Below, piece after piece: positions 5,106 to 39,086 of a DNA stretch of 39,785 bases. Numbering within the stretch: position 1 is the first letter of the stretch; every line of letters starts with the position of its first letter. The notes below the pieces were generated by a model. It ran no database searches. It had not been told where the DNA came from and was given only the letters and a program-made list of their open reading frames with translations. Made by a program: the position numbers and the translations under genes. The stretch lies in contig JAEUTI010000022.1 in the NCBI GenBank assembly GCA_016788065.1, positions 1 through 39,785 of the forward strand. The letters are read 5' to 3'. This DNA comes from Bacteroidia bacterium. GTDB taxonomy: Bacteria; Bacteroidota; Bacteroidia; AKYH767-A; OLB10.

Positions 5106-5162
5106 CAAAAATACTTCATCAGGTTTAACCCAAAATAGAATGAAAGTTAAATTGTGGTTAAA
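5106..5162 (-). promoter_or_regulatory. Promoter with Pho-box-like repeats of the receiver-less regulator
   Basis: Read on the minus strand, TTTAAC occurs twice with 11-bp period (around 5147-5162), and TTAAA about 22 bp further on (5125-5129). Just downstream is TATTTTTG (complement of 5106-5113), a match to the Bacteroidota -7 consensus TAnnTTTG, about 20 bp before the ATG. The repeats occupy the place of the -33 element, as expected for an activator site. Confidence 0.5.
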
Positions 5163-5172
5163 TTTTAAAGTG

Positions 5173-5319
5173 AACAGTGAGCAGTGAAGAGTGATCAGTT
5201 AGCAGTATGCAGTATGCAGTTAGCAGTATGCAGTTAGCAGTTAGCAGTTAGCAGTTAGCAGTGAAGAGTGATCAGTTATCAGTGAAAAGTTATCAGTGAA
5301 AAGTTATCAGTGAAGAGTG
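5173..5319. repeat. Heptanucleotide tandem array, 21 units
   Basis: A run of 147 bp splits exactly into 21 heptamers of general form NNcAGTN (AGCAGTT, TGCAGTA, ATCAGTG, AAGAGTG and similar). Positions 3-6 (cAGT) are nearly constant and the others vary. It lies in the gene-free stretch behind the Pho-type promoter. No reading frame uses it convincingly. Confidence 0.85.
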
Positions 5320-6391: not shown

Positions 6392-6441
6392 GTTGACCAT
6401 TACATATATTGTTGAATATCAATATATGAATTTATTTTTCA

Positions 6442-6480
6442 ATTAGAATATTTGGGCATAATATTAATAAATTTGGGAAT
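6442..6480 (+). repeat. Left pair of 18-bp repeats, putative integrase arm sites
   Basis: ATTAGAATATTTGGGCAT (6442-6459) and ATTAATAAATTTGGGAAT (6463-6480) each match the right-end repeat ATTAGAAAAGTTGGGAAT at 15 of 18 positions and are 21 bp apart, the same period as the right pair at 39035-39073. They lie between attL and the integrase start. The N-terminal domain of such integrases binds arm sites, so these are candidates. Confidence 0.6.
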
Positions 6481-6495
6481 ATAATCTCCTGAAAA

Positions 6496-7965
6496 ATGAG
6501 GTACCCCCATCCCAAGGTAACATTCCAGTTGAAGAAAACTGGTAAACGCCATACGGTAGTTCTACGGTTAAACATTGCTACAAAAAATGTATTGTGGACA
6601 CTTAATCACAAAACATATGGCCCTTATAAATCCCATTATATTTCTACTAAGCTCGACATAAAGCCAACTGAATGGGATTCTAAGCGTCGCAGGGCAAAAG
6701 GTAAAAACCCATTAAACACTGCTCTGGACAACATAGAAAAGCTCACAAAAGAAGTCTATTTCACTTATTGGCGAACCGCTGAAGGAAATCCGGATTTAAT
6801 TATAAATGCAATAAAGAAAATTGTATTTGGTTTTCAGATTAGGACGCAAGATGTAGTATTCAAGGAAAATTCGATTTTACCTGCCTACCAGGATGAAACA
6901 TTACCGGTGGTTACCGGCGACGCTGCTACCATTCTGGAAAAAAAAGCGGAATATGATGAAAAGGAGTTTGTAAAGGATAGAATTAAGGAAATGAATTTAA
7001 TTGATTATATCAAGAATGTGTACTTAGTCAAGCGAACGGACCTGGAACCAGGTTCAGTGAAATCCTATTCCAACATACAAGCATTCATACGGTCATATAA
7101 TTCAAAAACGAAAGTTTGTGACTTAAATGAAGAATGGGTAATAAGTTTTATGGATTGGGCGAGAAAACGAAAGCAAGATGACGGTTCCTTATATAGCTAT
7201 AATTATGTAAACACCTGCATCCAGAAACAATTGAAAGCAGTATCAAATTATTTGATGACGTATGAAAAAATTCCAAATGACATTGCCTGGAAGAAAAAAG
7301 AGATACGCAAATCAGGAACCAAGACGGATGAAATCGCTTTAAATTTAAAACAGCTTAAAACAATCATTGATTTGGATTTGTCCGGTGCAAGAAAAAGAGA
7401 AAAGGATTTGCCAATGTTGGAATTGTCAAGGGATTTAATGATTATCGGATGTTTAACATCGCTACGGGTCTCTGATATAAAGAAAATTCATCTGAACAAA
7501 ATTGGCAAGGACAAATATCAATTAGATATGATAACCCAAAAAACAAAAGCACATGTGAAATTTATTGTACATCCGCTTGTGGGCAAGATTTATGAAAAAT
7601 ATAATGGTAAGATACCAGGTATGTCAGATTCCAAATTGAATAAGAATGTCAAAGAACTTGGTAAGTTTGCTTTTGAAAAAGGACATACTGAATTTGGGAC
7701 AGAATTTATCAAAAAGAAGGTGGACCCAGATAACATCAATAGGATTATAGCGACTCCTCCAATAAAATTCTATGAGCGTATTAAATCATCAAGCTTCCGT
7801 AGAACATGGGCTTCATATGCTGTACAGTCGAGATTAATGAGCTTAGACCAAATCTGTTTGGTGACTGGTCATAGTCGGATTTCACAACTTATGGAATACT
7901 GTAAGACCAGTGAGGATGATTTGAATGAAAAGTTAGCTACTCTTTACAAAAAAATTAAGCTATAA
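6496..7965 (+). CDS. Tyrosine recombinase (island integrase)
   Basis: A 489-aa site-specific recombinase that would integrate and excise the island. An N-terminal arm-binding region (about residues 1-110, with LDIKPTEWDSKRRR typical of Bacteroidota integrases) is followed by a core-binding SAM-like domain (about 165-270) and a C-terminal catalytic domain. Visible catalytic residues are Arg324 (TSLRVSD), Arg435 (SSFRRTW), His459 (TGHSR) and the nucleophile Tyr468 (MEYCK). The usual HxxR histidine is Ser432 here, which is uncommon but seen at this less constant position. The gene lies 108 bp from attL and reads into the island, as expected. Its 3' end overlaps the convergent membrane-protein gene by 6 bp. 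Confidence 0.93.
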   Translation: MRYPHPKVTFQLKKTGKRHTVVLRLNIATKNVLWTLNHKTYGPYKSHYISTKLDIKPTEWDSKRRRAKGKNPLNTALDNIEKLTKEVYFTYWRTAEGNPDLIINAIKKIVFGFQIRTQDVVFKENSILPAYQDETLPVVTGDAATILEKKAEYDEKEFVKDRIKEMNLIDYIKNVYLVKRTDLEPGSVKSYSNIQAFIRSYNSKTKVCDLNEEWVISFMDWARKRKQDDGSLYSYNYVNTCIQKQLKAVSNYLMTYEKIPNDIAWKKKEIRKSGTKTDEIALNLKQLKTIIDLDLSGARKREKDLPMLELSRDLMIIGCLTSLRVSDIKKIHLNKIGKDKYQLDMITQKTKAHVKFIVHPLVGKIYEKYNGKIPGMSDSKLNKNVKELGKFAFEKGHTEFGTEFIKKKVDPDNINRIIATPPIKFYERIKSSSFRRTWASYAVQSRLMSLDQICLVTGHSRISQLMEYCKTSEDDLNEKLATLYKKIKL

Positions 7966-13056: not shown

Positions 13057-15090
13057 TTATTTGATTTTGACTTTTAACATCCTGGCATTTATTGCAACAA
13101 TGACTGTGCTTAAACTCATAAGTACAGCTCCCATTGCCGGACTTAACATAAAGTGGGGGAATAAAACTCCTGCAGCCAGGGGAATTGCTACCACGTTATA
13201 ACCAACTGCCCAACCAAGATTTTGGAGCATTTTATTATATGTAGCTCTACCAAAGGCAATCATATTAACGACATCCTTGGGGTCGCTATTTACCAGGATG
13301 ATATCCGCTGTTTCAGCGGCCACATCTGTTCCGGAACCTACAGCAATTCCAACATCCGCCTGTGCTAATGCAGGGGTATCATTTACACCATCGCCAGTCA
13401 TTGCCACTATTTCGCCCTTGTTTTGAAGTTCTTTCACTCTTTCTTGTTTTTGATGCGGTAGCACATTGGCCATGAATCCATCCATTCCTAATTTTTCGGA
13501 TACTGCTGATGCGATACTTTCATTGTCACCAGTAAGAAGGAAAGATTTTATATTCATCTTCTTTAATTCAGCAATAGCATCTGCAGATGTTTCCCGGATA
13601 CTGTCAGCCAATGTAATTATGCCTGCAACTTCATCATCAATCAAAACAAATGTCAAAGTTTCAGCTTGCTGATTTATATTCACGGGAATTATGGGCAGCG
13701 GTTTATTCTGCCTGGTAAAATAATTGGGACCCCCAGCAAAAACATTTTTGCCATTGACTTCACCCGAAACACCAACACCAGGTTCATACTTGAAATTTTG
13801 AGATTTCCATAACTGTAGATTGTTCTCATCCAGTTCCCGCAAAATTCCTTTTGAAATGTAGTGCTCTGAATATTGTTGCAAGGCTGCAGCATGTTGCAAT
13901 ATGTCATTTGTTGAATATTTTTCATTTACACTGATTACTTGTTGCACTTCATGTGAACCTTTGGTAAGTGTACCCGTTTTATCGAAAATGATTGTAGTGA
14001 GCTTTCTTGAATCTTCAAAGGCAGTACGATTACGTATTAACAGGCCATGCGTGGCAGACATTGTTGTAGAAATAGCAACGACCAGTGGAATTGCAACACC
14101 TAAAGCGTGGGGACAGGAGGTGACCATAACGGTGACCATGCGCTCCAGAGCGAAGCTTAAATCGTTTTGCATATACCACACCATGAAAGTGATAATTCCA
14201 ACTATAATTGAAATAAATGTTAACCACTTCGCTACCCTATCTGCAAGATTCTGAGTTTTGGATTTAGCGCTTTGGGCTGACTGCACAAGGGCGATTACTT
14301 TACTCAAGTAACTTTTAGCACCACTGCCTGTGATTTTCACTTTTAAAGAACCATCACCGTTTATGGAGCCCGCAATAACTTTATTTTCCTTTATCTTTTT
14401 AACAGGAATACTCTCACCTGTCAACATACTTTCATTAACAAACGAACTACCTTCAATGACTAATCCATCAGCAGGAATTTTTTCTCCTGGTTTAACAAGA
14501 GCAACATCACCGTCTTTTAAATCATTTATATTGATATCAACTATATTTCCATTTTTCTCAGCATGAACAACAGAAGGAAGTAACGCGACCAGGCTTTCGA
14601 GAGCTTTGGAGGCAGCCATTGTACTTCGCATTTCAAGCCAATGGCCCAATAACATAATATCAATTAGTGTTGCGAGTTCCCAGAAAAAGTCCATGCCATG
14701 CAGTCCGAAAACTATTGCCACACTATAAATAAATGACACAGTGATTGCAAGTGCAACCAGTGTCATCATTCCAATTGCATTATGTTGTATTTCGCTAACC
14801 ATTCCTTTAAGGAATGGTATTCCACCATAGAAATAAATTATGCTGCCAAATGCTAATAATAAATAATTTTCACCTTTAAATTCAAATTCGAATCCCAGCC
14901 ATTGTTGAACCATATGACTGAGCAACAATACCGGTATTGTGAGAAGAAGACAAACCCAAAAGCGCTTTAGAAAATCGTGAGTGTGATGCCCGGCATGCTT
15001 ATCATGAGTTTGTGTTTGAATGCCAGAATTCACATCAGGTAAGGGCTCCTGTGGATGATGATGCTGTGCAGTATGATGAGAATGGTCCAT
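13057..15090 (-). CDS. copB: Copper-translocating P1B-type ATPase, CopB-like (CPH type)
   Basis: A 677-aa inner-membrane metal pump that would export copper or silver with ATP. The N-terminus is His-rich (HSHHTAQHHH, HDKHAGHHTHD) instead of carrying an HMA domain. Motifs in order: TGES (224-227), the ion-pathway motif CPH (326-328), which marks the P1B-3/CopB class, phosphorylation motif DKTGTLT (370-376), and TGDGVND (565-571). The N-domain motif normally written SEHP reads SEHY (408-411), so the proline of the ATP-binding HP motif is replaced. The length is normal. It overlaps the upstream 104-aa gene by one base. Confidence 0.93.
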   Translation of the reverse strand: MDHSHHTAQHHHPQEPLPDVNSGIQTQTHDKHAGHHTHDFLKRFWVCLLLTIPVLLLSHMVQQWLGFEFEFKGENYLLLAFGSIIYFYGGIPFLKGMVSEIQHNAIGMMTLVALAITVSFIYSVAIVFGLHGMDFFWELATLIDIMLLGHWLEMRSTMAASKALESLVALLPSVVHAEKNGNIVDININDLKDGDVALVKPGEKIPADGLVIEGSSFVNESMLTGESIPVKKIKENKVIAGSINGDGSLKVKITGSGAKSYLSKVIALVQSAQSAKSKTQNLADRVAKWLTFISIIVGIITFMVWYMQNDLSFALERMVTVMVTSCPHALGVAIPLVVAISTTMSATHGLLIRNRTAFEDSRKLTTIIFDKTGTLTKGSHEVQQVISVNEKYSTNDILQHAAALQQYSEHYISKGILRELDENNLQLWKSQNFKYEPGVGVSGEVNGKNVFAGGPNYFTRQNKPLPIIPVNINQQAETLTFVLIDDEVAGIITLADSIRETSADAIAELKKMNIKSFLLTGDNESIASAVSEKLGMDGFMANVLPHQKQERVKELQNKGEIVAMTGDGVNDTPALAQADVGIAVGSGTDVAAETADIILVNSDPKDVVNMIAFGRATYNKMLQNLGWAVGYNVVAIPLAAGVLFPHFMLSPAMGAVLMSLSTVIVAINARMLKVKIK

Positions 15091-15404
15091 TATTTATTTT
15101 GTGAAAGCAGATATATAACAATTGCTGCCAATACAACGAGACAAATCCATGCTGATATCCAAAGTACTTTTACTATTCCCAGAGTTCGTTTGTTATAATC
15201 CTTCATTTGCATTATGTACATACCATACACGTGAAATATAGCACCAACAATGATTATTAAAATTGCGTAACTGTCAATTTTCAAACCCAATTTTGCGCCC
15301 AGTCCGAAACCTAAAATACCGGCACCAAGGGCTGAAGCAGACTGGGCCATTTTCATATATCCTGGAGAGGAATTTTGTATGGATGAGTTTGGAACAATTT
15401 TCAT
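15090..15404 (-). CDS. Small membrane protein, 104 aa
   Basis: Three hydrophobic segments (AQSASALGAGILGFGLGAKLG, AILIIIVGAIFHVYGMYIM, LWISAWICLVVLAAIVIYLL). The middle has Met/His residues (FHVYGMYIMQM) that could bind copper, but this is inference. It lies between the cusA N-terminal part and copB, overlapping copB by 1 bp, so a role in copper handling is likely. No family name is recognised. Confidence 0.75.
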   Translation of the reverse strand: MKIVPNSSIQNSSPGYMKMAQSASALGAGILGFGLGAKLGLKIDSYAILIIIVGAIFHVYGMYIMQMKDYNKRTLGIVKVLWISAWICLVVLAAIVIYLLSQNK

Positions 15405-15424: not shown

Positions 15425-16693
15425 CTATTCAGTTTGTTGCGCTTCACTCAAATGTCTGTATGCATTTTCAACCATTACAATTCCATCGTCAACAATTACT
15501 CCTATTGCCAGTGCAATTCCAGTCAATGACATAATGTTCGAAGAAAATCCAAATAGATTAAGAAGGATAATGCTTGAAGCAACTGATATGGGAATTTGAA
15601 TTAGAATGATTAAAGCACTTCGCCAATGAAAAAGAAACAATAACACAACTATTGAAACACTGATGAAGACTTCTAAAAGTGTTGCCTTCACTGAATCAAT
15701 TGCCTCTTCAATTAATCCGCTTCGGTCATAATCAATATTAAAAGTAATTCCTTCAGGTAGTCCTTTCTGCAATTCGTCCATTTTGGATTTTACTCTCATT
15801 ATCACGTCATCCGCATTTTCACCGTACCGCATAACGATAATTCCACCAACTCTTTCACCTTCGCCGTTACCATCAAAAATCCCATACCTTATATCACCTC
15901 CAAGCTGAACTGAACCCACATCTTTTATCCTGATTGGAATATTATTAGCTGTACTAATAGAAATGTTTTCGATATCCTCCATGGATTTAATATATCCAAG
16001 TCCACGGACAATGTATGATTTATCACTCATCTCAAATTTCCTGCCCCCTACATCATTGTTGTTGGACTTCACAGCCTGTTGAACGTCCATCATCGAAAGA
16101 TTATAGAAGTTGAGCTTCACCGGGTCTATGACAACCTGATACTGTTTTTGAAACCCTCCGAATGAAGCAACTTCACTTACACCCGGTACTGTTTGCAGAG
16201 CAAACTTAACATACCAATCCTGCAAGGCCCTTTGTTCACCAAGGTCAAATCCTTTCGCGTTTAATGAATACCAAAAAATATGACCTACACCAGTTCCATC
16301 AGGACCAAGTGTCGGAGAAATGCCTTCAGGTAGTAATTTTTGAGCAAAACTCAATCTTTCCGAAACCCTGGTTCGTGCCCAATAGATATCAACGTTATCC
16401 TCGAATACCAGATAAACGAAGCTCATTCCGAACATGGATGTACCCCTGATGTTTTTAAGTTTTGCAATGCCCTGCAAATTCGAAACAAGCGGGTACGTTA
16501 TTTGGTCTTCAATAACCTGGGGACTTCTACCCATCCATTCAGTGAAAACAATAACCTGATTTTCGGAAAGGTCTGGTATGGCATCAACGGGATTGTGTTG
16601 CACTTCATACAATCCCCAGCCGAACATACCAGCTGCCAATAGCAATACGACCAGGCGATTGCGTAAAGAAAATGCTATGAGTCGCTCTACCAT
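15425..16693 (-). CDS. cusA: CusA/CzcA heavy-metal RND pump, N-terminal part (split gene)
   Basis: A 422-aa protein equal to the first 40% of a CusA-type RND transporter. It opens with MVERLIAFSLRNRLVVLLL (TM1), then NPVDAIPDLSENQVIVFTEW, QITYPLVSNLQGI and SMFGMSFVYLVFED (porter domain), TM2-TM3, and GIALAIGVIVDDGIVMVENA (TM4 with the acidic proton-relay pair). It stops at HLSEAQQTE in the cytoplasmic loop after TM4. The remaining 632 residues of such a pump are encoded separately at 21274-23172; together they make 1054 aa, the length of a full CusA. The stop is clean, with no coding remnant after it. Upstream is a metal-binding lipoprotein gene 6 bp away. It can work only if the two parts assemble. 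Confidence 0.9.
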   Translation of the reverse strand: MVERLIAFSLRNRLVVLLLAAGMFGWGLYEVQHNPVDAIPDLSENQVIVFTEWMGRSPQVIEDQITYPLVSNLQGIAKLKNIRGTSMFGMSFVYLVFEDNVDIYWARTRVSERLSFAQKLLPEGISPTLGPDGTGVGHIFWYSLNAKGFDLGEQRALQDWYVKFALQTVPGVSEVASFGGFQKQYQVVIDPVKLNFYNLSMMDVQQAVKSNNNDVGGRKFEMSDKSYIVRGLGYIKSMEDIENISISTANNIPIRIKDVGSVQLGGDIRYGIFDGNGEGERVGGIIVMRYGENADDVIMRVKSKMDELQKGLPEGITFNIDYDRSGLIEEAIDSVKATLLEVFISVSIVVLLFLFHWRSALIILIQIPISVASSIILLNLFGFSSNIMSLTGIALAIGVIVDDGIVMVENAYRHLSEAQQTE

Positions 16694-16699
16694 CTCCGA

Positions 16700-16945
16700 C
16701 TATTGCTTTGTTCTTTCAATAAGTGCCATACCACATTTTGGACAATTACCAGGTTTATCGGAAAGTACTTCCGGGTCCATTTCACATTGATAAAATGTTT
16801 CTCCGCTTTTCAACTTTGTTGTGTCAAGATTGAATATTTGAGACGATGATTCCACTTTCGCTGAATCTGTTTTAGTTGACGAACTGTTGCAGGCAGTGAA
16901 CGCGATAATGACGGCGGCGGCAGAGATAATGATTGCTATTTTCAT
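16700..16945 (-). CDS. Heavy-metal-binding-domain lipoprotein, 81 aa
   Basis: A small lipoprotein (lipobox FTAC, Cys19). The mature part holds the metal-binding motif FYQCEMDPEV-x6-GNCPKCGMAL, a Cys-Met ... CxxCxM pattern known from the N-termini of CusB-like adaptors and from small periplasmic copper-binding proteins. It probably binds Cu(I) or Ag(I) in the periplasm and feeds the efflux pump. A second gene of the same type is at 24617-24838. Confidence 0.85.
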   Translation of the reverse strand: MKIAIIISAAAVIIAFTACNSSSTKTDSAKVESSSQIFNLDTTKLKSGETFYQCEMDPEVLSDKPGNCPKCGMALIERTKQ

Positions 16946-16973
16946 ACTGTTTTAAATTAAATTTGTTAATGAA

Positions 16974-17621
16974 TTATTCTTCGTGATGATGCTCGTTCGA
17001 TTCTAAATGATTGCCTTTCGGTCCGATTCCTTCCATGTGAACGAGCATTGCTCCATGATGCCCTGCAATGGAAACTGTGATTGCCGATGCGACGAGAAAG
17101 AGTGAAATAATTATTTCTAACCACGTTTTTCTTTTCAGAATAAAATGTGCAATAATTTTTCCAAACAGTGCAGCAACTGAAAACCACCAGGTGAAGTTTG
17201 CCATTTGTTCGTGGGTTTCAAATATTTCTTTTGCCCTTCCTGTGAGTGCTTCGGGGTCTGCATGAAAGGTGTTTGAAGAAAGCCATGCAGTTATGACACC
17301 CAAAGCCAACAACACCAATGCAACCCAACTCAATTCTTTTTTGAATACGAAAAATGAGAACAACTGGATGAAGGTCGCGATGATGAGCAACACAATAGGA
17401 AAATGAACGATTAGTGGATGATAATTTGGGAAGGCATCCACTGCCTTCATTTCTTCGTGCGCTTTCATTTCGTGCATCATGGCTGAATCGTGCTGCATTG
17501 GAATTGCAGAATGAGCAATGGAATCTTTTTTAGCATCTTTATCATGATGTTCATGTGCGAATGATGGCATAGTGAATGCTATCAACAGAGTTACTAAAAC
17601 GGATGTGAAATATTTTTTCAT
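16974..17621 (-). CDS. DUF2231-like membrane protein with His/Met-rich segments
   Basis: A 215-aa protein with a signal peptide (cleavage near SFAHEHH). A periplasmic stretch rich in His and Met follows (HEHHDKDAKKDS, AIPMQHDSAMMHEMKAHEEM), then four TM helices, the first starting with NYHPLIVHFPIVLLII, the typical opening of DUF2231. The C-terminus is again His-rich (ESNEHHHEE). In the efflux operon it probably binds or channels copper; the exact role of the family is unknown. Confidence 0.82.
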   Translation of the reverse strand: MKKYFTSVLVTLLIAFTMPSFAHEHHDKDAKKDSIAHSAIPMQHDSAMMHEMKAHEEMKAVDAFPNYHPLIVHFPIVLLIIATFIQLFSFFVFKKELSWVALVLLALGVITAWLSSNTFHADPEALTGRAKEIFETHEQMANFTWWFSVAALFGKIIAHFILKRKTWLEIIISLFLVASAITVSIAGHHGAMLVHMEGIGPKGNHLESNEHHHEE

Positions 17622-17637
17622 TTCTATTTTTTTGAAT

Positions 17638-18855
17638 TCACATTTTCATTCCTTTCATTTCTCCATGACCTTCCATTGGATTGGCACCTTTTTTAAACAC
17701 ATACTCACTATTCAACAAATATGCGCCTTGTACTACCACTACATCATTTTCATTTAATCCTTCAAGAATTTCTATTTCACGACTGTTTTGCATTCCAACA
17801 GTTACCATTCTATTTTCAAATACTCCGTCACTATTTCTTACCCAGACATTAGTTCCCTTACTATCCTGAATTATTGCGTTTAAAGGAAGAGTCAGAGATT
17901 TCTTTTTTTCGGTTTGAAGTATAATATTCGCCAACATACCGGGTTTTATATTCTGGGATGGATTAGCGAACTCCAATCTTGCAAGTACAAATCGCGAAGA
18001 GGATTGCACTTGAGGGTCCATAAATATAACCTTGCCATTGAACGAAATTTCACCGGCAGCAGGAACAGAAATTAATGCTTCAGTTCCCATACTGATGTAT
18101 GGCAGGTAAGGCATATACACCTGGACTTCGACCCAAAGTGAATTGAGTGAGGTAATACGAAATAAAGTGGTACCTGTGGATACATAACTTCCTTCGCTTA
18201 TTGATATTTCACTTACAAAACCATCCTGAGATGAATACACTGGAACATATTGATATATTTCCTTTGATTGTCGAAGTTTGTTAATCTGTGCTTCACTCAT
18301 GCCATATAGTAGCAATTTGTGCTTGGCAGCTTCGCTAAAGTTATCGGACATGGATGCTTGCTGAGTAGCAAGTATAAACTCGTTTTGAGTAGATGCTAAT
18401 TCCTCACTATATATTTCATAAAGGAGTTGGCCTTTTCTAATGAAATCACCGGAATTTCTAATTTCAAGTTTTTCGATTCGACCTGCCACTTTTGAACTAA
18501 TGGAATTTGTGAGGTTCTGGTCAACAGCAATTTTTCCTGTAAGTACGATTTCTTTCGCAAGGTCATGCATACGAATAGTATCAAATTCAATGTTTCCCAA
18601 CTTTATCTGTTGAGCACTGAGTTTTAATTGTCCGGCTTTAAGGTTGTTCCTTTTAACCTTAATTAATTTCATATGACAAATTGGGCAATTACCTGCTTTA
18701 TTTTCTATGACCTGGGGGTCCATGGAACATGTAAAATATTCATCTGGTCCGGCCATTTCATCATGAGTATTTTTCTTACAAGAGGCAAATAGCAAAATAA
18801 ATGTACTTGCTAACCAAATAAATCCTAACCTATAGTTAATGATACTACTCTTCAT
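17638..18855 (-). CDS. cusB: CusB-type periplasmic adaptor with metal-binding domain
   Basis: A membrane-fusion protein linking an RND pump with its outer-membrane channel. From ATG 18855 it has 405 aa: lipoprotein signal (LLFASC), then the heavy-metal-binding motif FTCSMDPQV...GNCPICHMKL (about residues 45-70), a lipoyl/barrel-sandwich half SSKVAGRIEKLEIRNSGD, a helical hairpin, the second half SSQDGFVSEISISEGSYVSTG and beta-barrel domains. The longer reading from GTG 18882 is unlikely because it would put nine residues before the signal peptide. It overlaps the preceding adaptor gene by 11 bp. Confidence 0.9.
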   Translation of the reverse strand: MKSSIINYRLGFIWLASTFILLFASCKKNTHDEMAGPDEYFTCSMDPQVIENKAGNCPICHMKLIKVKRNNLKAGQLKLSAQQIKLGNIEFDTIRMHDLAKEIVLTGKIAVDQNLTNSISSKVAGRIEKLEIRNSGDFIRKGQLLYEIYSEELASTQNEFILATQQASMSDNFSEAAKHKLLLYGMSEAQINKLRQSKEIYQYVPVYSSQDGFVSEISISEGSYVSTGTTLFRITSLNSLWVEVQVYMPYLPYISMGTEALISVPAAGEISFNGKVIFMDPQVQSSSRFVLARLEFANPSQNIKPGMLANIILQTEKKKSLTLPLNAIIQDSKGTNVWVRNSDGVFENRMVTVGMQNSREIEILEGLNENDVVVVQGAYLLNSEYVFKKGANPMEGHGEMKGMKM

Positions 18856-20086
18856 TGCCTGGAGTATTAATAAAACTTTCACTATCTATAAGAAATTGAG
18901 CATTTACTGCAATTTGTTCCCCACTTTCCAAACCATGGGTAATCTGAATTAATGAATCTGTTACTATTCCTGTTTGAATTATTTTAGTCCTGAAGTATTC
19001 GCCGCTTTTCATAAATACCACCTGGCTTTGTCCGAGATTAATCACAGCCGTGCGTGGAAGCCAAATTCCAGAGATTTCTTTGGCAGTGATTTTAGCAGAA
19101 ACTAATGAGCCAATTTTTATTTTGAGGGAGTCAGAATTAGACAAATAAATTCGAGCCTGGACTGCAGCTGCATTCTGTCCTGTGATTGGTTCAATATAGC
19201 TGATTGAAGAGGTGATTTCTTGTGTAGGATTTGTTTCTAATGAAATAGAGACATTATCACCTACTTTTATTATAGAAGCATCAGAAGGGAATATATTCAA
19301 AACCGCCCATACCTGATTAGTACTAAATACGGAAAATACTGATTGACCCGTTTGTATATACATGCCTTCTTTGATTCCAAGAGCTGAAGACTGTGAAGCA
19401 GGAAGATTGATATTTTGAACCTGTCCTGGTTGCTCAATATTCTCGCCCATGCCGTTCATGCCATTATCTGCTTTATCTTCTGAAACTACGCCAGAACTAA
19501 TTCCAATATCATGAATGTGGCCACTGTATGCACTGAACACAGGAAGAGGATTTATTGGTTTCAGCGTTACCTTTATTTGTTTTATTTGTTCACCTGTTAA
19601 GCCAAGCAATTGAAGTTTTTCCTTTGCAGCGTTCAATAACGAAGTATCGATTTTTGTACTGTTTAATAATAAAATAAAATGTAGTTGCTCCGTCACTATT
19701 TCAGGACTATAAATATCCATGATGCGTTGACCTTTTGAAACTTTTTCAAAATTGAACCTGACATATAGCTTTTCAATACGACCATTAAACCGGGCACTAA
19801 TTGTATTTTGTAATCGTGGGTCATACGTTATTACTCCTGTAGCATTAATAACTGGATTATACTTGTAATTCGTAGGAGTAATTGTTTTAACATTGCTAAA
19901 TACAGTTTTATTGGTAGGTTCTACCAAACCATCCAGTTCAGTTTTTTTGTCAGCTGAAATATGCTTATGTTTATCAGTTCCATTGCAGGAAATGATTAAA
20001 CACGCGGAAATGATTCCGATGAAAATCGAAATTGCAATTACTCCAAAATGAGTTTTACTGCTATTGTATTTCCAACTGTTTCTCAT
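18845..20086 (-). CDS. CusB-type periplasmic adaptor, second copy
   Basis: A 413-aa RND adaptor. The N-terminus has a TM/signal segment (IAISIFIGIISACLIISC), then NATGVITYDPRLQNTISARFNGRIEKLYV, a helical hairpin (QLHFILLLNSTKIDTSLLNAAKEKL), FSAYSGHIHDIGISSGVV, and beta-barrel parts. A Met/Gly-rich insert (DNGMNGMGENIEQPGQ) in the second lipoyl half resembles Met-rich copper sites. It lacks the CxxC metal-binding domain of its neighbour. Two adaptors in one operon are frequent in Bacteroidota Cus systems. It overlaps cusC (26 bp) upstream and the other adaptor downstream. Confidence 0.88.
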   Translation of the reverse strand: MRNSWKYNSSKTHFGVIAISIFIGIISACLIISCNGTDKHKHISADKKTELDGLVEPTNKTVFSNVKTITPTNYKYNPVINATGVITYDPRLQNTISARFNGRIEKLYVRFNFEKVSKGQRIMDIYSPEIVTEQLHFILLLNSTKIDTSLLNAAKEKLQLLGLTGEQIKQIKVTLKPINPLPVFSAYSGHIHDIGISSGVVSEDKADNGMNGMGENIEQPGQVQNINLPASQSSALGIKEGMYIQTGQSVFSVFSTNQVWAVLNIFPSDASIIKVGDNVSISLETNPTQEITSSISYIEPITGQNAAAVQARIYLSNSDSLKIKIGSLVSAKITAKEISGIWLPRTAVINLGQSQVVFMKSGEYFRTKIIQTGIVTDSLIQITHGLESGEQIAVNAQFLIDSESFINTPGNEE

Positions 20087-21287
20087 ATTCTACTTCTAAA
20101 TTCAAAAGTAACTGTAGCTGGTCCAATTCATTCATTTTGGCCATGCGATACATTTTCAAACCCTCCAGAACTACAAATAAATCTTCAGTATTCTGTTCGT
20201 ATGATAATAGTGAAGCCTGGAAACTTTTATAGTAAGTGGGACCAATATTTTCATTATAGTTTGATAATTGTTGCTTAATAGCCTTCATCTGAACTTGTAA
20301 GGAAGAAATCATTCCAGCAGTTTCATTGGTAAGTGCCTGCTTCTGATAGGTAATTGCGTTTGTTGTGTTTTCTAACCCTTTTATATTTGCCTTATATTCT
20401 TTTGAAGCCCACGGAGCTATTGGTATTGTAACCATTCCCATCGCTGAATACTGATTCGGCATCATGCCAAGTGATTCCATATGGCTTAGCGAAATTCCAA
20501 AGTCGGGTAGTCGTTTTGACTTTTCATATTGTTGCTGGAGCTTGGCCATCGCTATTTGTGCGTCAAACTGCTTGATATCACTTCTTGAATTAAGAATATG
20601 AGCTGTATCTAAAAATTGTGATTCATAGTTATGGATATGTAGTGTTGTATCCACATCAAAAATGTTATTTACATCCAGATTCATGAGTGTATTGAGCTCA
20701 ATATTCTTCATTTTGATATCACTCAAAAGCATTGATTCCATATTTCGAAGCTCGAATAAATCCGCTTGGGCCTTGTAAATGTTGTTGAGCTGTTCTTTAT
20801 TGTATGTATACCTAATTCTGGCAACATCTATAATATTATTTAGAAGTGAATCGGTCTGAATCAAAATGTCATGTTTCCTTTTTAAAATAACCCATTCGTA
20901 ATAGTTCTTTTTCGCCATTGTAAACATCTCATTCTGTCGGGTACCTTTTCCTGCCTGTTCAACGGAAACCATAGCCTGCATAAATCTATAGTTAGCTTTC
21001 TGTTTAGCAGGATTGGGAATCATCTGTTCACCCGTTATCATAAACATTCCTTCCTTTATATTCTCATAAGGCGTTTCCCAAAGTCCGCCTGAAAGTGTAG
21101 TCGGCATCCAACTCCTGGTCATTTGTGAAAAATTGTCAATTGCAATTATCTGCTCATCATACATCTTCAACATAGGATTGCTACTTTCTATTCGCTTCAG
21201 AACAGAATCAAGTGGAACTACCTGGGCAGATATTTGCGTATAATATACACTCAGGAGTAAAACAAATAATATTTTACAATTCTTCAT
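20061..21287 (-). CDS. cusC: TolC/CusC-type outer-membrane efflux protein
   Basis: A 408-aa protein with signal peptide (VLLLSVYYTQISAQ). The body is long coiled-coil helices of the TolC type: VLKRIESSNPMLKMYDEQI, then RFMQAMVSVEQAGKGTRQNEMF, and a second repeat LNSRSDIKQFDAQIAMAKLQQQYEKSKRLPDF, where GISLSHMESLGMMPNQYSAMGMV is Met-rich. It would form the trimeric outer-membrane duct for metal export. It starts 14 bp inside the end of the cusA C-terminal part. Confidence 0.88.
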   Translation of the reverse strand: MKNCKILFVLLLSVYYTQISAQVVPLDSVLKRIESSNPMLKMYDEQIIAIDNFSQMTRSWMPTTLSGGLWETPYENIKEGMFMITGEQMIPNPAKQKANYRFMQAMVSVEQAGKGTRQNEMFTMAKKNYYEWVILKRKHDILIQTDSLLNNIIDVARIRYTYNKEQLNNIYKAQADLFELRNMESMLLSDIKMKNIELNTLMNLDVNNIFDVDTTLHIHNYESQFLDTAHILNSRSDIKQFDAQIAMAKLQQQYEKSKRLPDFGISLSHMESLGMMPNQYSAMGMVTIPIAPWASKEYKANIKGLENTTNAITYQKQALTNETAGMISSLQVQMKAIKQQLSNYNENIGPTYYKSFQASLLSYEQNTEDLFVVLEGLKMYRMAKMNELDQLQLLLNLEVEYEKQLEIQ

Positions 21288-23172
21288 TTTTACCAGGTAA
21301 AATCAATTGTCCATGTATTTTAAGTTCCCTTTCCTTTACCATTTCATAAATCACCGGTGTAACCAGTAACACATAAATGGTTGATGAAATAACTCCGCCG
21401 ATTAATGGTATGGTTATGGGTAACATTACATCACTGCCAGTTCCTGTTGCCCAGAGAATGGGTATCAATCCAAATAATGAAACACAAACGGTCATCAATT
21501 TTGGACGCAAACGTTGCACAGCTCCATCTGTGATATATTGTCGCAAGTCTTGCTTTGTAATTGTGGATGCCGAATTTCCTTTGATAGCTACCAATTTCTC
21601 CATGTACTCATTTAAATAAATAGTCATCAGCATTGCAGTTTCAATGGCTACACCAAACAAGGCAATGAAACCGACTGCCACAGCAACGGATAAATTTACA
21701 CCATAGAAATAAATCATAAATACCCCACCTATCAGAGCGAAAGGAACAGTAATCATTGTTAACAAAGCTTCCTTCCAGGATTTGTATGTAAAATAAAGTA
21801 CCATGAGAATAATTAATAGTACTATAGGCATTATAACAGACAACGTTTTGTTAGCGCGAATCTGATTTTCCCATTGACCGCTCCATTCAAGGCTATATCC
21901 TTTTGGAAGTCGTGAATACATTTTATTCAATTTCTCCTGAGCTTCCTGTACTGTGCTGCCCAAATCACGGTCACGTACATTGAATAAGATTGTTCCACGC
22001 AACATAGCATTCTCTGAATTTATCATAGCAGGTCCTTCTGTTAAAGAGATGCTTGCTACTGCTGAAAGTGGAATGGTACCGGAAGTGGCCGTTTTAATGG
22101 GAATCTGGTTAATTGCTTCCAGGCTATTACGAAAATCCTGGCCTAACCTGGCATTTACCGTAAACCGTTCTCTGCCTTCTATGGTAGTAGTCAGATTCAT
22201 ACCACCCAAAGCAGTTTCAACATACATATTTACATCGTCCACGCTCAGACCATACCTACCTATTTCATTTCTCCATACAGTTATGTCAATATATCGTCCC
22301 CCGGTAACCGGTTCAACATATATATCTTTTATTCCTTCAATACCCTGAAGCTCGTTTTTCATAGAAAGTGCCAGTGAATAAATTGAATCAAGATTTTGAC
22401 CGTATATTTTTAAGCCAACATCTGTTCTTATTCCTGTCGATAGCATGTTTATCCTGTTAATTATGGGCTGGGTAAAGCCATTGACAACACCTGGGATTTG
22501 TAGTTTGGCGTTGAGTTCATTGATGATATCATTCTTTGTAATTCCTTCTCTCCATTCCGCTTTTGGCTTCAGCAAAACAATGGTTTCAATCATACTAATG
22601 GGAGAATTATCTGTAGCAGTACTGGCCCTTCCAGCTTTTCCCAATACATTGGCAACTTCCGGAACCGACGCAATTAATTTATCCTGTACTTGTAAAATTC
22701 TTTTTACTTCTGAATTAGAAACATCAGGTAAAGTTACTGGCATAAACAAAATTGTACCTTCATCAAGAGGTGGCATAAATTCAGAGCCCATACGAAGCAT
22801 CATCACTATTCCAACAATAAGAGCAAAAATATTTATTGCGAGTACTGTTTTTCGCCAAGACAAACACCAGGAAAGGATGGGTGCATAAACTTTCTCAAGT
22901 CCGCGTGTAATGGGATTTGAGCTTTCAGGTTTAAGTTTACCTTTAAGAAAAAAAGAAATCAGGATTGGAGTTAAGGTAATCGCGAGGAAAGCATCGATGA
23001 TGAGTATGAATGTCTTTGTCCAGGCCAGCGGATGAAATAGCTTGCCTTCAATTCCAGTAAGAAGAAAAACAGGGAGAAATGAAATAATAACAACAATTGT
23101 AGAGTAAAAGACTCCTGGACCCACCTGTTTCGATGAGTTCTCAATTGTTTTTATTCTTTGTTTATCATTCAT
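21274..23172 (-). CDS. cusA: CusA/CzcA heavy-metal RND pump, C-terminal part (split gene)
   Basis: A 632-aa protein matching CusA from just before TM5 to the end. It starts MNDKQRIKTIENSSKQVGPG, continues with IISFLPVFLLTGIEGKLFHPLAWTK (TM5/6), MGSEFMPPLDEGT, the second porter domain (NRINMLSTGIRTDVGLKIYG, EPVTGGRYIDI, ALGGMNLTT, EGPAMINSENAM) and TM7-TM12 ending in VLLVTPVIYEMVKERE. The N-terminal 422 residues are encoded at 15425-16693, downstream of five other genes. An in-frame TAG lies 12 bp before the ATG, so it is not a fusion with upstream sequence. It overlaps cusC by 14 bp. Confidence 0.9.
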   Translation of the reverse strand: MNDKQRIKTIENSSKQVGPGVFYSTIVVIISFLPVFLLTGIEGKLFHPLAWTKTFILIIDAFLAITLTPILISFFLKGKLKPESSNPITRGLEKVYAPILSWCLSWRKTVLAINIFALIVGIVMMLRMGSEFMPPLDEGTILFMPVTLPDVSNSEVKRILQVQDKLIASVPEVANVLGKAGRASTATDNSPISMIETIVLLKPKAEWREGITKNDIINELNAKLQIPGVVNGFTQPIINRINMLSTGIRTDVGLKIYGQNLDSIYSLALSMKNELQGIEGIKDIYVEPVTGGRYIDITVWRNEIGRYGLSVDDVNMYVETALGGMNLTTTIEGRERFTVNARLGQDFRNSLEAINQIPIKTATSGTIPLSAVASISLTEGPAMINSENAMLRGTILFNVRDRDLGSTVQEAQEKLNKMYSRLPKGYSLEWSGQWENQIRANKTLSVIMPIVLLIILMVLYFTYKSWKEALLTMITVPFALIGGVFMIYFYGVNLSVAVAVGFIALFGVAIETAMLMTIYLNEYMEKLVAIKGNSASTITKQDLRQYITDGAVQRLRPKLMTVCVSLFGLIPILWATGTGSDVMLPITIPLIGGVISSTIYVLLVTPVIYEMVKERELKIHGQLILPGKNEEL

Positions 23173-23266: not shown

Positions 23267-23980
23267 CTAAATATTAATTAAAAGCATTATTCCACTCATT
23301 ACAACCATTAGAGCATCTTCCACAATGGTAATGGTACTCATCGGTAAATTAAATACTGCACCCAGGCAAGCACATTTTATTTCAGTCTTGTTTAAAACGC
23401 TTTTGACAACACCTATGATGCTTACTCCCATAATGACAAAGGTTATTGAATTTGTCGCCATTGCATTAATGTTTGTCAGAAAAGCCAATCCTAATCCCAA
23501 TTCTAAAAATGGATAAATCATCGCCCATACAGGAAATCTCTTTGCAATAACATCATACATTTGATATGCATGATAAAATTCGCGAAGATTAATTAATTTA
23601 AAAAATGAAAATGCAAGGAAAAATCCGGCCATGAAACTGTTCATCCATGTCATGAAGGAAAATTCTCCATTTCCAAACTGCGATAGAAAAGCAACAACTG
23701 TGATATAAAAAAATAATAAAAGTACTGGCTTGTACATTGTGAACCACCTATCCTTGTTATTAATTACTTGGTTAGATTCTAATATACCATAATCTCCTTT
23801 TTCAAGGAGGGCTTGCTGAAGTTGTAAAAGTGGTATATGACTGTTCATCGTTAATACTACTGTACTTTTTTCCCTTGATACTTCCGCTGACTCTATTTGA
23901 GGCAGAGACAACAATGCTGACTTTACTTTTGCTTCGCACTTCCCGCATGTCATTCCTGTAACCTGATATGTATGTTTCAT
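23267..23980 (-). CDS. HMA-domain protein fused to a MauE-like membrane domain
   Basis: A 237-aa protein. Residues 1-70 form a heavy-metal-associated domain with VTGMTCGKCEAKV (Cys12, Cys15). The rest has four to five TM helices, with a loop ending KCACLGAVFNLPMS, a CxC pattern typical of the MauE/DoxX-like or MerT-like membrane domains fused to HMA in Bacteroidota. It may carry copper across or away from the membrane. It is the gene before the cusA C-terminal part (94-bp gap) and after the AraC gene. Confidence 0.82.
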   Translation of the reverse strand: MKHTYQVTGMTCGKCEAKVKSALLSLPQIESAEVSREKSTVVLTMNSHIPLLQLQQALLEKGDYGILESNQVINNKDRWFTMYKPVLLLFFYITVVAFLSQFGNGEFSFMTWMNSFMAGFFLAFSFFKLINLREFYHAYQMYDVIAKRFPVWAMIYPFLELGLGLAFLTNINAMATNSITFVIMGVSIIGVVKSVLNKTEIKCACLGAVFNLPMSTITIVEDALMVVMSGIMLLINI

Positions 23981-24059: not shown

Positions 24060-24620
24060 TTATAGATTGTCTATAGATTGTCGTTTTTGGGCTTTCAGTT
24101 CCTTGAAATAACTCGGAGTAAATCCAGTTACTTTCTTAAATTGACTACTTAGATGGGAAACACTGCTGTAATTTAATATAATAGCTATTTCACTAAGTGT
24201 CATTTCATTATACATGATTAACTCTTTAACTCGTTCAATTTTTTGAAGAATAAAATATTGTTCAATTGTTGTACCTTCTACTTGTGAAAACAAGTTGCTC
24301 AAATAGTTATAGTCATGATGAATTATGCCAGTGATAAATGAAGATAAATTTATTCTTCCATTCATGTTCTCTGAATAAATAAGCTTAATAATCGAACTCT
24401 TAATTTTTTCAATAATTTTACTATGCTTATTATCAATAATTGAAAATCCAACAGATGATAAGGATTGACTTAAATCACGAACTTCGACCTTTGACAATTC
24501 CTCAGTTATTTCCACCTCTCCCAGGTCAATGGAAATAGGATTTAATCCAAACTTTTTCAGCTCAGACTCCACAACCATTTTACACCGGTTGCATACCATA
24601 TTCTTAATAAACAGCTTCAA
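24060..24620 (-). CDS. AraC-family regulator with N-terminal CxxC metal-binding-like segment
   Basis: A 186-aa protein. The N-terminus MKLFIKNMVCNRCKMVVESELKKFGL looks like the first part of an HMA domain (Cys10, Cys13), while residues 85-180 form an AraC-type double helix-turn-helix (MTLSEIAIILNYSSVSHLSSQF, VTGFTPSYFKEL). Such proteins occur next to copper genes in Bacteroidota, so a direct Cu(I) sensor is a reasonable inference. It overlaps the metal-binding lipoprotein gene by 4 bp and ends 80 bp before the HMA-membrane gene. The likely targets are the two flanking operons. Confidence 0.85.
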   Translation of the reverse strand: MKLFIKNMVCNRCKMVVESELKKFGLNPISIDLGEVEITEELSKVEVRDLSQSLSSVGFSIIDNKHSKIIEKIKSSIIKLIYSENMNGRINLSSFITGIIHHDYNYLSNLFSQVEGTTIEQYFILQKIERVKELIMYNEMTLSEIAIILNYSSVSHLSSQFKKVTGFTPSYFKELKAQKRQSIDNL

Positions 24621-26300: not shown

Positions 26301-28013
26301 TTAATTTTTGATAATTTTCTTTGTGACGATTAAGTTGGAATTCGAAATAGTCAAGAAATATATTCCATCAGGTAAATTTGAAATATTCATTCTTGCAGGA
26401 AGCTCACTTCTTATCTCTGATAAAAGCTCACCTATGGTGTTAAATAATTGTATACTTGATTCATCAATGTTTCTTTTTGATTCAATGATTAAGCTCTCGG
26501 AAGCAGGGTTTGGAAAAATTGATATGTCATCATTAATTTCAAACTCGGTAATACCTACTGTAGATGTATCAATGACGACAAAGCTTCCCATCATTCCTTC
26601 ATCCTCATGATGCAGCATATGACAATGATACATGTAAGGCACGGAGTCATTAGCGAAATCTTCAAATTTTGTAACGAACTCGACATATTGTTGGGGTAAC
26701 ACCAATACAACATCCTTTTGGCCCTGTTCATGTACCGGGACTGTATTACCGTTAACATTTAATAAATAAAATTGCACATCGTGTATATGAAAAGGATGTG
26801 CAATTCCTGTATTATTTGTTATACGCCATTTTTCAGTATCATTCAAATAAACCGTTTCGTTTATGACTCCCATATCAAAATGAAAACCGTTTATATTAAA
26901 TGGGCCCTCAACCTGCCCAACCGGACTCATCATAGTATCGGGAAGCAAATTGAAATTTCTTGAAACAGTAAATCCTGTGTAAGGAGTATTGGTAGTTAGT
27001 GATGAAGGAATGGAAGTTACAGGACTGCCCGTTTGAGCAATTACATTTAGTTGGAGAATTTCAAAATCAGCTCCATTTAGAGGATTCAGATTATAATCCG
27101 GAATTGTGCCTCCCATCGGACCAATCACAGTTGCCGCGCCATAAATTCCATTCTGAAATTCAGAACTAAAACTTATTAAATGAAATGTCTGGCCTGTCAT
27201 GCCCTGTAAGTCCAACAATATTTCCGCACGTTCACCAGGCGCTAATCGCAATCTATTCATGGAAACTGAACTATCCAACAATCCTCCATCAGAGGCAATC
27301 ATTTTGAAAGGCAAGTTTCCAGTAAAACCGAAATTGTAAACACGCGAAGAGGAACCATTGAGCATTCGCAACCTGATAACTTGTGCGGGCACATCTAAAA
27401 ACGGGTCAACAACTCCATTAACACATATAGCGGTATCCAACTCAGTAGATATTGCTATTTGATTAAGGATGTCAAATGCCTTGCTTTGAACTATAATTGG
27501 AAAATCGTCAACACCATATGTTCGCGGCAGGGTAAGGTTGGATTCAACACTGTCTTTTATTATTATCATTCCGGCAATGCCCCTGGAAACATGCAAATCC
27601 GTTTTGTTGTCACCATGAGGATGATACCAGAATGTCCCTGCAGAATTTAAAACCTGGAAGGTTGGACTCCATGTGGCTCCCTGGAGAATAACCTGATGGG
27701 GTCCGCCATCTGCTACTGCTGGCACATGTAAACCGTGCCAGTGAATAGTAGTAGAATTACCAAAGCCAGCTAAATTATTTGTAACGTTCATGGTTACCCA
27801 GTCCCACTTATTTATAATGAGGGTAGGTGCCAGTAAGGAGCCATTAATTCCCAGTGTAGGAGTATTAATTCCCTGGTAAAACTGAGTAACTCCATTTTGG
27901 ATATTCAGGTTAAATGTTGTTCCTGTAAGGGCCGGAGGTATGGTCAATGGATTTTGACCCAAACCAGGCAGTACTATTAGACTTAATAAAATGCAATAAA
28001 TAATCCTTCTCAT
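26301..28013 (-). CDS. Secreted multicopper oxidase with T9SS tail
   Basis: A 570-aa protein with signal peptide. All four copper-binding motifs are visible: HWHGLH (91-96), WYHPHG (129-134), HPFHIHDVQF and YHCHMLHH (about 462-469). The order and length fit a CueO/CotA/bilirubin-oxidase-like multicopper oxidase with cupredoxin domains. The chemistry would be oxidation of Cu(I) or phenolic substrates with reduction of O2 to water. After the oxidase comes a Por/T9SS sorting domain (FPNPASESLI ... LPDGIYFLTI), so it is exported across the outer membrane. It lies within the copper module, so detoxification of Cu(I) outside the cell is likely. Confidence 0.93.
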   Translation of the reverse strand: MRRIIYCILLSLIVLPGLGQNPLTIPPALTGTTFNLNIQNGVTQFYQGINTPTLGINGSLLAPTLIINKWDWVTMNVTNNLAGFGNSTTIHWHGLHVPAVADGGPHQVILQGATWSPTFQVLNSAGTFWYHPHGDNKTDLHVSRGIAGMIIIKDSVESNLTLPRTYGVDDFPIIVQSKAFDILNQIAISTELDTAICVNGVVDPFLDVPAQVIRLRMLNGSSSRVYNFGFTGNLPFKMIASDGGLLDSSVSMNRLRLAPGERAEILLDLQGMTGQTFHLISFSSEFQNGIYGAATVIGPMGGTIPDYNLNPLNGADFEILQLNVIAQTGSPVTSIPSSLTTNTPYTGFTVSRNFNLLPDTMMSPVGQVEGPFNINGFHFDMGVINETVYLNDTEKWRITNNTGIAHPFHIHDVQFYLLNVNGNTVPVHEQGQKDVVLVLPQQYVEFVTKFEDFANDSVPYMYHCHMLHHEDEGMMGSFVVIDTSTVGITEFEINDDISIFPNPASESLIIESKRNIDESSIQLFNTIGELLSEIRSELPARMNISNLPDGIYFLTISNSNLIVTKKIIKN

Positions 28014-33370: not shown

Positions 33371-33550
33371 TTATTTCTCCCTTTTTAAGCTGAACGCTTC
33401 AAATTCCGCCTTATTTTCATGCTGTGTCACAAAAACAAAAGGTGAAATTGTTTTCCGCCGTGCAGTCTCAATAATGATTGATTCACCACTCTTTAATTCA
33501 TGCCGAAATTTATCAAACTTGTGCTTCGGTGCTTGCAGCTGCTGATTCAT
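33371..33550 (-). CDS. Small overlapping ORF, 59 aa
   Basis: An ATG at 33550 within the 3' end of the 646-aa gene opens a 59-codon frame ending at TAA 33371-33373. The sequence is charged and protein-like: MNQQLQAPKHKFDKFRHELK, SGESIIIETARRKTISPFVF and VTQHENKAEFEAFSLKREK. The 38-bp overlap with the gene before it suggests coupled translation. It is too short for simple ORF calling. Function unknown; a small partner of the 646-aa protein is possible. Confidence 0.55.
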   Translation of the reverse strand: MNQQLQAPKHKFDKFRHELKSGESIIIETARRKTISPFVFVTQHENKAEFEAFSLKREK

Positions 33551-35548: not shown

Positions 35549-37060
35549 TTAAATATAATACATAAATGGTAATATTTCTAACTCTTCATTTGGGCCGGCA
35601 GTCAATATTTCTCCGATTAAATCGGCAAACTTTAGTGTGACCGGTGTTCCATCACAATAAATGCATGCATTATAGTTCAGCTTGGTCAGCATAAGTACAT
35701 CCTTGCATACAGCACGAATATCCTCGTCACCTCTAATTACTTCTATCCAAAGCGGATTTGGTGTTTCTAAGCCCAAAACGGATTGAATACGCGGCATGAA
35801 GCCTTTACTCCATAGAAATGCCGAATGGGCATTACGTATATAACAGGCTCCTCTAAAAATGGGGAATTTTCCTGCACGAAATAATTTAAATTCTTTTTCA
35901 TGTGTAATTCTCACTCCATATACATTTGATTTACCGCTGGCTGCCTTTTCAAAACCTCTCCATTCATCATCATTAAAATATGTCTTGCCATGAATAAATA
36001 TTTTCTCCGGAAAATCAGAGTCATTTCCTTTTTTGAAGGATTCAAGAACTTTCGAAAGTAACTCAAACGCCTTATCTTCTGTCAGATGATATTCCTTCGT
36101 GTCCGGATTGTAGTAGGGACCCACTCTTCCTCTAAAAACTACACCGTCTCCTGAATCAAGAAACATTTGTGCAGCACAACAGGCTATGCGTGTGTCAGAA
36201 TGAGTTTCATCTCGTTTGAAAGTTAAACCTATATAACAAACATTCTTTCTGACATTTGCTACCTTCCAGGGAATACCACCTGCTTTGTAATAAACTGTGT
36301 TTGCCAAATTCCAGGTGATAGCAGTTACTTGTTGATTATATGTTTTAAGTTTTTTCTCAGAAAAATTAGGTTTCTCATGAAAGGCAATCGTATCTTCTCG
36401 AATAATTTGGGTAACAACTCTTTCTTTAAGAAGTTTAATTTTTAATTGGTTGTGAAAATGATTTTCATATTTATAAGCGGCTCTCCATCTTCCAGATTCT
36501 TCATCTTCAAACATGCTTGGTACTTTTTTTGAATATTCATCTGTGAATCCTACATTAATGGAACCTTTTTTGGGAACACTACTCATAGGTCGACATAATG
36601 TATAAACCTTGTTTGGAATGATTACAAACCAAAGTTTCGGCAGATGTTCTCCTTCCTTGATAAATGATTTTAAAGGGTTGACATATAAGTCAACAATCTC
36701 TGCTACCCTTATATGATTATCACTATACTTATATAAAGTATCTAATGCAAGTTCATTTATTTCAATGCTTGGAATGTACTCCAAATTCATCGACACAGAA
36801 AATGCCTGGTTAAAACCGGGAAAGAATGGTTTTGCAATATCGCGAGTAGGATGATAAACTGGATTTTGAATCTTATTCAACCAATTTTTGCACTTACGGA
36901 TGCCGTCACTGGTCCCAATAATTCCAATTGCAAAATCGGGGACTCTTCCTTTATCGTACGGTCCAAATAGTGTAAGTCCATCACGTGGGTCAATCACATC
37001 CTGGCCAAATGCGAATTTTATTTCTGGTTCTCGAATGTATTCAATTCTCTGTGTTTTCAT
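35549..37060 (-). CDS. Short prokaryotic Argonaute (MID-PIWI), SPARTA-type
   Basis: A 503-aa protein with only MID and PIWI domains. The MID region has KLWFVIIPNKVYTLCRP (about residues 140-160). The PIWI region begins NVCYIGLTFKRDETHSDTRI and continues with SGDGVVFRGRVGP, PEKIFIHGKTYFNDDEWRGFE, FPIFRGACYIRNAHSAFLWSKG and VLMLTKLNYNACIYCDGTPVTLKFADLIGEIL. These are typical of short pAgos. The DEDX catalytic tetrad is not visible (first Asp replaced in IGLTF), as expected for nuclease-dead short pAgo. It overlaps the TIR-APAZ gene by 4 bp (ATGA), so a heterodimer is likely. The complex would use an RNA guide to sense invader DNA. Confidence 0.9.
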   Translation of the reverse strand: MKTQRIEYIREPEIKFAFGQDVIDPRDGLTLFGPYDKGRVPDFAIGIIGTSDGIRKCKNWLNKIQNPVYHPTRDIAKPFFPGFNQAFSVSMNLEYIPSIEINELALDTLYKYSDNHIRVAEIVDLYVNPLKSFIKEGEHLPKLWFVIIPNKVYTLCRPMSSVPKKGSINVGFTDEYSKKVPSMFEDEESGRWRAAYKYENHFHNQLKIKLLKERVVTQIIREDTIAFHEKPNFSEKKLKTYNQQVTAITWNLANTVYYKAGGIPWKVANVRKNVCYIGLTFKRDETHSDTRIACCAAQMFLDSGDGVVFRGRVGPYYNPDTKEYHLTEDKAFELLSKVLESFKKGNDSDFPEKIFIHGKTYFNDDEWRGFEKAASGKSNVYGVRITHEKEFKLFRAGKFPIFRGACYIRNAHSAFLWSKGFMPRIQSVLGLETPNPLWIEVIRGDEDIRAVCKDVLMLTKLNYNACIYCDGTPVTLKFADLIGEILTAGPNEELEILPFMYYI

Positions 37061-38918: not shown

Positions 38919-39034
38919 GTTTTTGTGTTATAAAGTTGTGAGCCTGCTCACTTTCAAACACCTTGCCCTTATTTTTTTCAGGACTTTATGTCATATACCA
39001 TATATAAAGCACTGACATCGAGGCTATTTTTCCA

Positions 39035-39073: not shown

Positions 39074-39086
39074 AATTAGAAATAAA

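Follow-up and report, generated by a model that had tools for sequence, protein, structure and literature searches.

In the window that we analyzed (39,785 nucleotides, contig JAEUTI010000022.1 of assembly GCA_016788065.1, from a Bacteroidia bacterium), the cusA gene of a copper cluster is divided into two open reading frames, which very probably encode a functional Cu(I)/Ag(I) RND pump with a permease of two separately translated chains. Our data suggest a model in which the N chain (TM1-4 with the first periplasmic loop) and the C chain (TM5-12 with the second periplasmic loop) would be translated separately and would associate in the inner membrane to form one CusA-like protomer. Three such protomers, together with CusB-type adaptors and the CusC channel, would then export the metal with the help of the proton gradient. 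That both chains are synthesized, assembled and active in transport is what we infer from conservation and gene content, and Cu(I)/Ag(I) export by the window system is likewise a prediction from sequence. The genes of the cluster are listed in Table 1.

Table 1. Genes in and around the divided cusA of the window
Feature	Positions	Strand	Basis or remark
AraC-type regulator with weak HMA-like N-terminus (HMA below Pfam cut-off)	24060..24620	-	profile match
HMA + MauE-like membrane protein	23267..23980	-	profile match; upstream of C part, 94 nt gap
C part of CusA, 632 aa: TM5-TM12 and second periplasmic loop	21274..23172	-	NCBIfam, structure alignment, hydropathy
Outer membrane channel, CusC/TolC type, Pfam OEP	20061..21287	-	14 nt overlap with C gene
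Periplasmic adaptor 1, CusB type, HlyD_D23	18845..20086	-	profile match
Periplasmic adaptor 2, CusB type, with heavy-metal-binding HMBD motif	17638..18882	-	profile match
DUF2231 membrane protein	16974..17621	-	profile match
HMBD metal-binding small protein	16700..16945	-	directly upstream of N part, 6 nt gap
N part of CusA, 422 aa: TM1-TM4 and first periplasmic loop	15425..16693	-	NCBIfam, structure alignment, hydropathy
Small protein, 104 aa, between N part and ATPase	15090..15404	-	without NCBIfam match
Copper-type P1B ATPase	13057..15090	-	profile match; in same tightly packed gene run

The frames, lengths, starts and stops of both halves agree with those of an earlier sequence-only reading, and its description of an N part that runs to TM4 and a C part that begins with TM5 is borne out by open reading frames, alignments and hydropathy, the latter placing four transmembrane segments in N and eight in C, twelve for the pair. 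Aligned to the crystallised E. coli CusA, N corresponds to positions 8-429 and C to positions 438-1045, leaving about eight residues of the TM4-TM5 loop unmatched, and the proposed location of the cut in this cytoplasmic loop is thus supported. The family in question is that of CusA/CzcA HME-RND permeases (TIGR00914, PF00873). N covers positions 1-427 and C positions 433-1041 of the 1051 positions of the NCBIfam profile, so that the pair covers the whole family profile and, loop residues aside, does add up to a full CusA as the same reading had it. Each half alone stays below the curated TIGR00914 cut-off of 701.45 bits (472.2 for N, 620.9 for C); a single chain would not be filed as a family member, and the pair would work like one. 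For the isolated halves, AlphaFold gives models of low confidence (mean pLDDT of 62.6 and 59.5), and a Foldseek search with the low-confidence N model ranks CusA and CusBA entries first, at a TM-score of 0.60 and an rmsd near 11 A.

The two halves lie 4.6 kb apart on the minus strand. As the sequence-only reading had described, C comes first, followed by cusC (OEP), the two CusB-type adaptors, the DUF2231 gene, the HMBD gene and finally N, so that adaptor and outer membrane channel adjoin the permease genes as expected for a tripartite CusCBA system. Intergenic distances of -38 to +28 nt, from C through to an AAA gene past the P1B ATPase, make a single operon likely. On the minus strand near this operon we found no match to a Bacteroidota-type promoter consensus, the only minus-strand match being at 5106-5134. 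The AraC-type regulator upstream is probably a metal-responsive one.

The metal-site and proton-relay residues are retained in the window. A three-methionine site of CusA, M573/M623/M672 with E625, is described in PMC8092243, which is also our source for the roles of the residues scored here (D405, M573, M623, M672, E625, K482, E939 and K984). In the window, N has the equivalents of D405, M391 and M410, and C has the three-methionine site, E625 and the equivalents of E939 and K984. The two chains thus share one proton relay, to which N contributes D405 and C contributes E939/K984. The equivalents of D405, M573, M623, M672, E625 and K482 are found in all nine loci with the C-first arrangement (hereafter permuted) and in 100 of 100 rows from loci in which C follows N (collinear; some loci are represented twice). 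The relay is complete in the window, and some relatives deviate from it: E939 is retained in 8 of 9 permuted loci and in 79 of the 80 collinear rows with a letter there, the exceptions being L151 (permuted, K) and L168 (collinear, Q), and K984 is retained in 9 of 9 permuted loci and 71 of the 79 collinear rows with a letter there, the other eight having V, L or F. As an observation in its own right, the lysine is a valine in the collinear split pumps L077, L091, L099, L106 and L169. Of the three transmembrane methionine pairs, only M391-M1009 is fully present in the window. M410 is retained as well, and the equivalents of M403, M486, M501, M271 and M755 are not methionine. This partial loss makes uptake from the cytoplasm through a full methionine relay doubtful, and export from the periplasm would be the safer reading for the window pump.

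The sequence-only reading had left the choice between a pump that works as two polypeptides and a dead gene. We consider it highly improbable that the two frames are the remnants of a broken cusA. The genome does contain other RND genes, some of them full-length, and loss of this one may therefore be tolerable, but both frames are full-length and keep their active-site residues, and the same split recurs in named isolates and in 24 of 395 sampled genomes (see below). Selection points the same way. NG86 estimates were made for 12 pairs, with dS usable in both halves for six and in N alone for one more, and dN/dS is 0.013-0.09 where dS is usable. Among permuted pairs dS is saturated in both halves for five of seven, including both pairs with the window; the sole well-resolved one, L044/L151, gives 0.030 for N and 0.038 for C. 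A two-chain pump fits this combination of shared split, kept residues and low dN/dS far better than a dead gene does. A full-length cusA elsewhere in the same genome would have changed this picture; we found neither an intact orthologue of the split cusA nor other members of this split subfamily there. The closest other RND frame, of 1487 aa on contig 15, shares 36-37% identity with N, matches a 20-row C profile at 8.5e-118 and has a weak OEP match behind its RND part; the same profile finds two further, weaker places in the genome, on contigs 27 and 14.

Related genomes share the split, which answers a question raised by the sequence-only reading. A search with N against 84,980 species genomes gave at least 559 relatives among at least 591 pattern matches, of which the best 80 were kept. 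Among these best 80, the N frame measures 425-483 aa from stop to stop, and C follows N in 72 (L050-L121). In five others (L043-L047) C lies 3.9-5.9 kb upstream of N; L048 has the C-before-N order too, with C cut by the contig end, and L042 and L049 have no C on the same contig as N. For the phylum we searched with N and C in a sample of 395 genomes drawn evenly from a larger group, scoring the best few candidates per genome (N identity of at least 59% with a frame below 500 aa; C at E <= 1e-220) and leaving out G269, at 54% and with an N frame that ends at a contig edge. Split CusA occurs in 24 of these genomes, with 29 N and 29 C places; at the thresholds used, no genome of the sample has one half only. 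Twenty-six pairs are adjacent in the order N-C (in G412 the two are about 0.8 kb apart), and three are permuted (G000, G233, G249). Within the order, a split N was found at E <= 1e-110 in 9 of 42 genomes, counting the window's own, and one genome, G010, has a long frame. Unsplit sister genes, among the matches listed for the phylum sample, start at about 60% N identity and go down from there, mostly with frames of 1045-1160 aa. The expectation that Bacteroidota usually carry one intact cusA is thus untrue for this subfamily, and a split shared so widely resembles a stable arrangement of natural origin more than it does a broken gene.

The same survey speaks against an artefact of assembly or binning in which two contig ends were joined. 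The window comes from a 97-contig assembly, and the five permuted loci with record titles are all on MAG contigs, which is what such an error might look like. However, C lies 3.6-5.9 kb upstream of N on nine distinct contigs of up to 202 kb, and the split itself is present in one-contig genomes such as G098 and in closed plasmids of Runella slithyformis and Adhaeribacter swui, where N and C are annotated as two genes that overlap by 4 and 8 nt, respectively. The chance of an artefact is therefore very small.

In collinear pairs, the junction has the features of two genes. The relative frames of 89 distinct pairs are distributed 55, 19 and 15, and C starts with ATG in 88 of them. In 24 of these 88 pairs the start of C overlaps the stop of N, in 15 of them by exactly 4 nt; it follows the stop by 0-20 nt in 56 pairs and at a greater distance in 8, and N-C gaps reach 591 nt. 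The use of all three frames and of an ATG for C argues against one programmed frameshift, and given the gaps, both frameshift and readthrough can be ruled out for the group. Collinear C chains often open with a cationic leader such as MAKWFKRNKDPL; the C start is mostly shorter in the permuted loci (MDKKERLKII...).

How did the permuted order arise? The sequence-only reading pointed to the opening of a circular cluster within cusA; starting from an intact gene, such an event would have made the split and the permutation in one step. The phylogeny speaks against this, as N directly precedes C in most relatives and the permuted loci are a nested clade. Our tree of concatenated N and C has 97 rows (92 different: 79 collinear, 9 permuted and 9 unsplit), taken from 139 after removal of rows in which N or C is missing or incomplete and of four others that were duplicates or artefacts. 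Under midpoint rooting, the root separates four distant unsplit rows from all others. The nine permuted rows group as a single clade (SH-aLRT 100); a branch with an SH-aLRT of 88 (below 95) has all 88 split rows to one side of it, and collinear rows branch deeper than and beside the permuted clade. FastTree trees of N alone (132 rows, 7 of them in no group) and of C alone (97 rows) recover the same three groups. The nesting of the permuted clade in the collinear split group implies that the split came first and the permutation later, an order of events that does not require the opening of a circle within an unsplit cusA. According to the tree, then, cusA would first have been cut in its cytoplasmic TM4-TM5 loop, with N still preceding C; a later move in one lineage would have brought N behind the adaptors, and the chains would no longer be translated side by side.

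Nine permuted loci on distinct contigs (the window, L043, L044, L045, L046, L047, L151, L153 and L171) remain of 12 places first given that label, after removal of L159x1, where the locus edge truncates a distant RND frame, and of L154 and L152, which are on the same contigs as L046 and L047. All nine have the order C-cusC-cusB-cusB'-...-N, and in eight of them HMBD directly precedes N. Collinear relatives such as L169 and Adhaeribacter have the order HMBD-N-C-OEP-B1-B2, and eight of nine permuted loci are a rotation of it, as the opening of a circle would produce. An exact rotation that keeps HMBD and N together fails in the ninth locus, L171, which is basal in the clade: here an HMBD motif stands before C, none lies between B2 and N, and N directly follows B2. 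The C chain of L171 also keeps a leader (MKFFDRF...) that resembles those of collinear C genes. If the root of the tree holds, the collinear loci outside and beside the permuted clade refute the circular origin, which we regard as most unlikely. Because L171 keeps HMBD before C and has only N at the end, a move of N rather than a rotation of the whole circle is indicated. In the simplest first step N alone may have moved, and HMBD may have joined it later or may be another copy; the HMBD motif is short and common. Since tandem split pairs exist (L075, L164), tandem duplication with losses would be another route to the permuted order. In the nine permuted loci we found no convincing remnant of a lost N upstream of C or of a lost C downstream of N: the region upstream of C in L044 scores 50 against 49 for the best of 60 shuffles, and just 1 of 60 shuffles reaches the score seen upstream of C in L046 and in L171 and downstream of N in L151. 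The scan thus offers no remnants to decide between the two routes.

In the tree, the rows closest to that of the window belong to other families of the same order or lie outside the order, and the pair in its genus mate (G011) is a different one and collinear (60%), which suggests horizontal spread. With N and C kilobases apart, translation in the permuted lineage would lack direct coupling of stop and start, and assembly would have to join separate chains. One might then ask whether the halves belong to one pump at all, or whether C or N has another role, for example with a different partner. G187 and G294 each have three N/C pairs, making an exchange conceivable. However, N and C are equal in number and occur in the same genomes, the N-only and C-only trees agree in their groups, and one proton-relay triad with mostly retained residues spans both chains, leaving a very slight chance for separate roles. 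Separate chains would let N and C assemble independently, and hybrid pumps could form where several N/C pairs are present. That genomes with two or three pairs do mix chains in this way, and that the permuted lineage regulates or doses the chains separately along the operon, is a speculation to which we give a small chance.

Compared with CusA of E. coli CusCBA (HME-RND, TIGR00914), the window pump is alike region by region, in the three-methionine site, in the proton-relay residues and in its channel and adaptor partners, but it has two chains encoded at opposite ends of the gene run, two adaptor genes and only partly kept transmembrane methionine pairs. The collinear split CusA of other Bacteroidota, for example Runella slithyformis (pRUNSL02), Flavobacterium and Lacibacter, has the same split point and family (about 55-79% identity per half) and differs in having N directly before C (overlapping by 4 nt in Runella) and often the cationic leader on C. 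SecD/SecF, an RND-superfamily transporter that exists fused and as two genes, divides at the boundary of its 6+6 TM repeat, whereas split CusA is cut 4+8, off the repeat boundary. MdtB/MdtC is an RND permease that requires two different gene products, both of them full-length paralogues, whereas the halves of split CusA are two pieces of one protomer. Searches of an open-access library, which lacks most subscription papers, turned up no description of a split CusA or split RND permease; the passages of PMC4338810 that came up deal with other matters.

Should the two chains prove functional, they would show that an RND permease can be assembled from two pieces that are cut off the internal repeat boundary and encoded kilobases apart. 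The pump would then be a natural system for studying protomer assembly, with a ready split site for tagging or complementation. There is also an annotation gap. Among 12 plasmid records with a C match of at least 60%, the feature is called 'efflux RND transporter permease subunit' in eight and is absent from the listing in four, and the Runella and Adhaeribacter plasmid records give both halves this name only. Scores of the single halves below the TIGR00914 cut-off may explain the generic naming in relatives. With such scores and names, copper/silver pumps of the split group may escape annotation, or be mistaken for pseudogenes.

Several other features of the window deserve mention. A multicopper oxidase with a C-terminal sorting domain (Por_Secre_tail) is encoded near the copper cluster at 26301-28013 on the minus strand, and on the Runella plasmid a multicopper oxidase likewise lies upstream of the split pair. 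Similar 20-nt repeats (80-100%), in pairs 21 nt apart, are present toward both ends, at 6441-6481 beside a gene at 6496-7965 that we take to be integrase-like, and at 39034-39074 near a tRNA-Arg (39143-39217). These repeats may mark the borders of an island of 32.6 kb in which the copper cluster lies. An array of short units (AGTTAGC-like, with a spacing that is a multiple of 7) is present at 5155-5318, about 1.2 kb ahead of the integrase-like gene. A short pAgo gene and a TIR-type partner, presumably a SPARTA-like defence pair, occupy 35549-38547 on the minus strand (PADLOC pAgo_I, 4.1e-185; Aga_TIR-PNTD1-PNTD2, 2.1e-114), and the 646-residue protein encoded beside them (33513-35453, minus strand) has a partial match to the PADLOC candidate PDC-S39 (1.5e-12).
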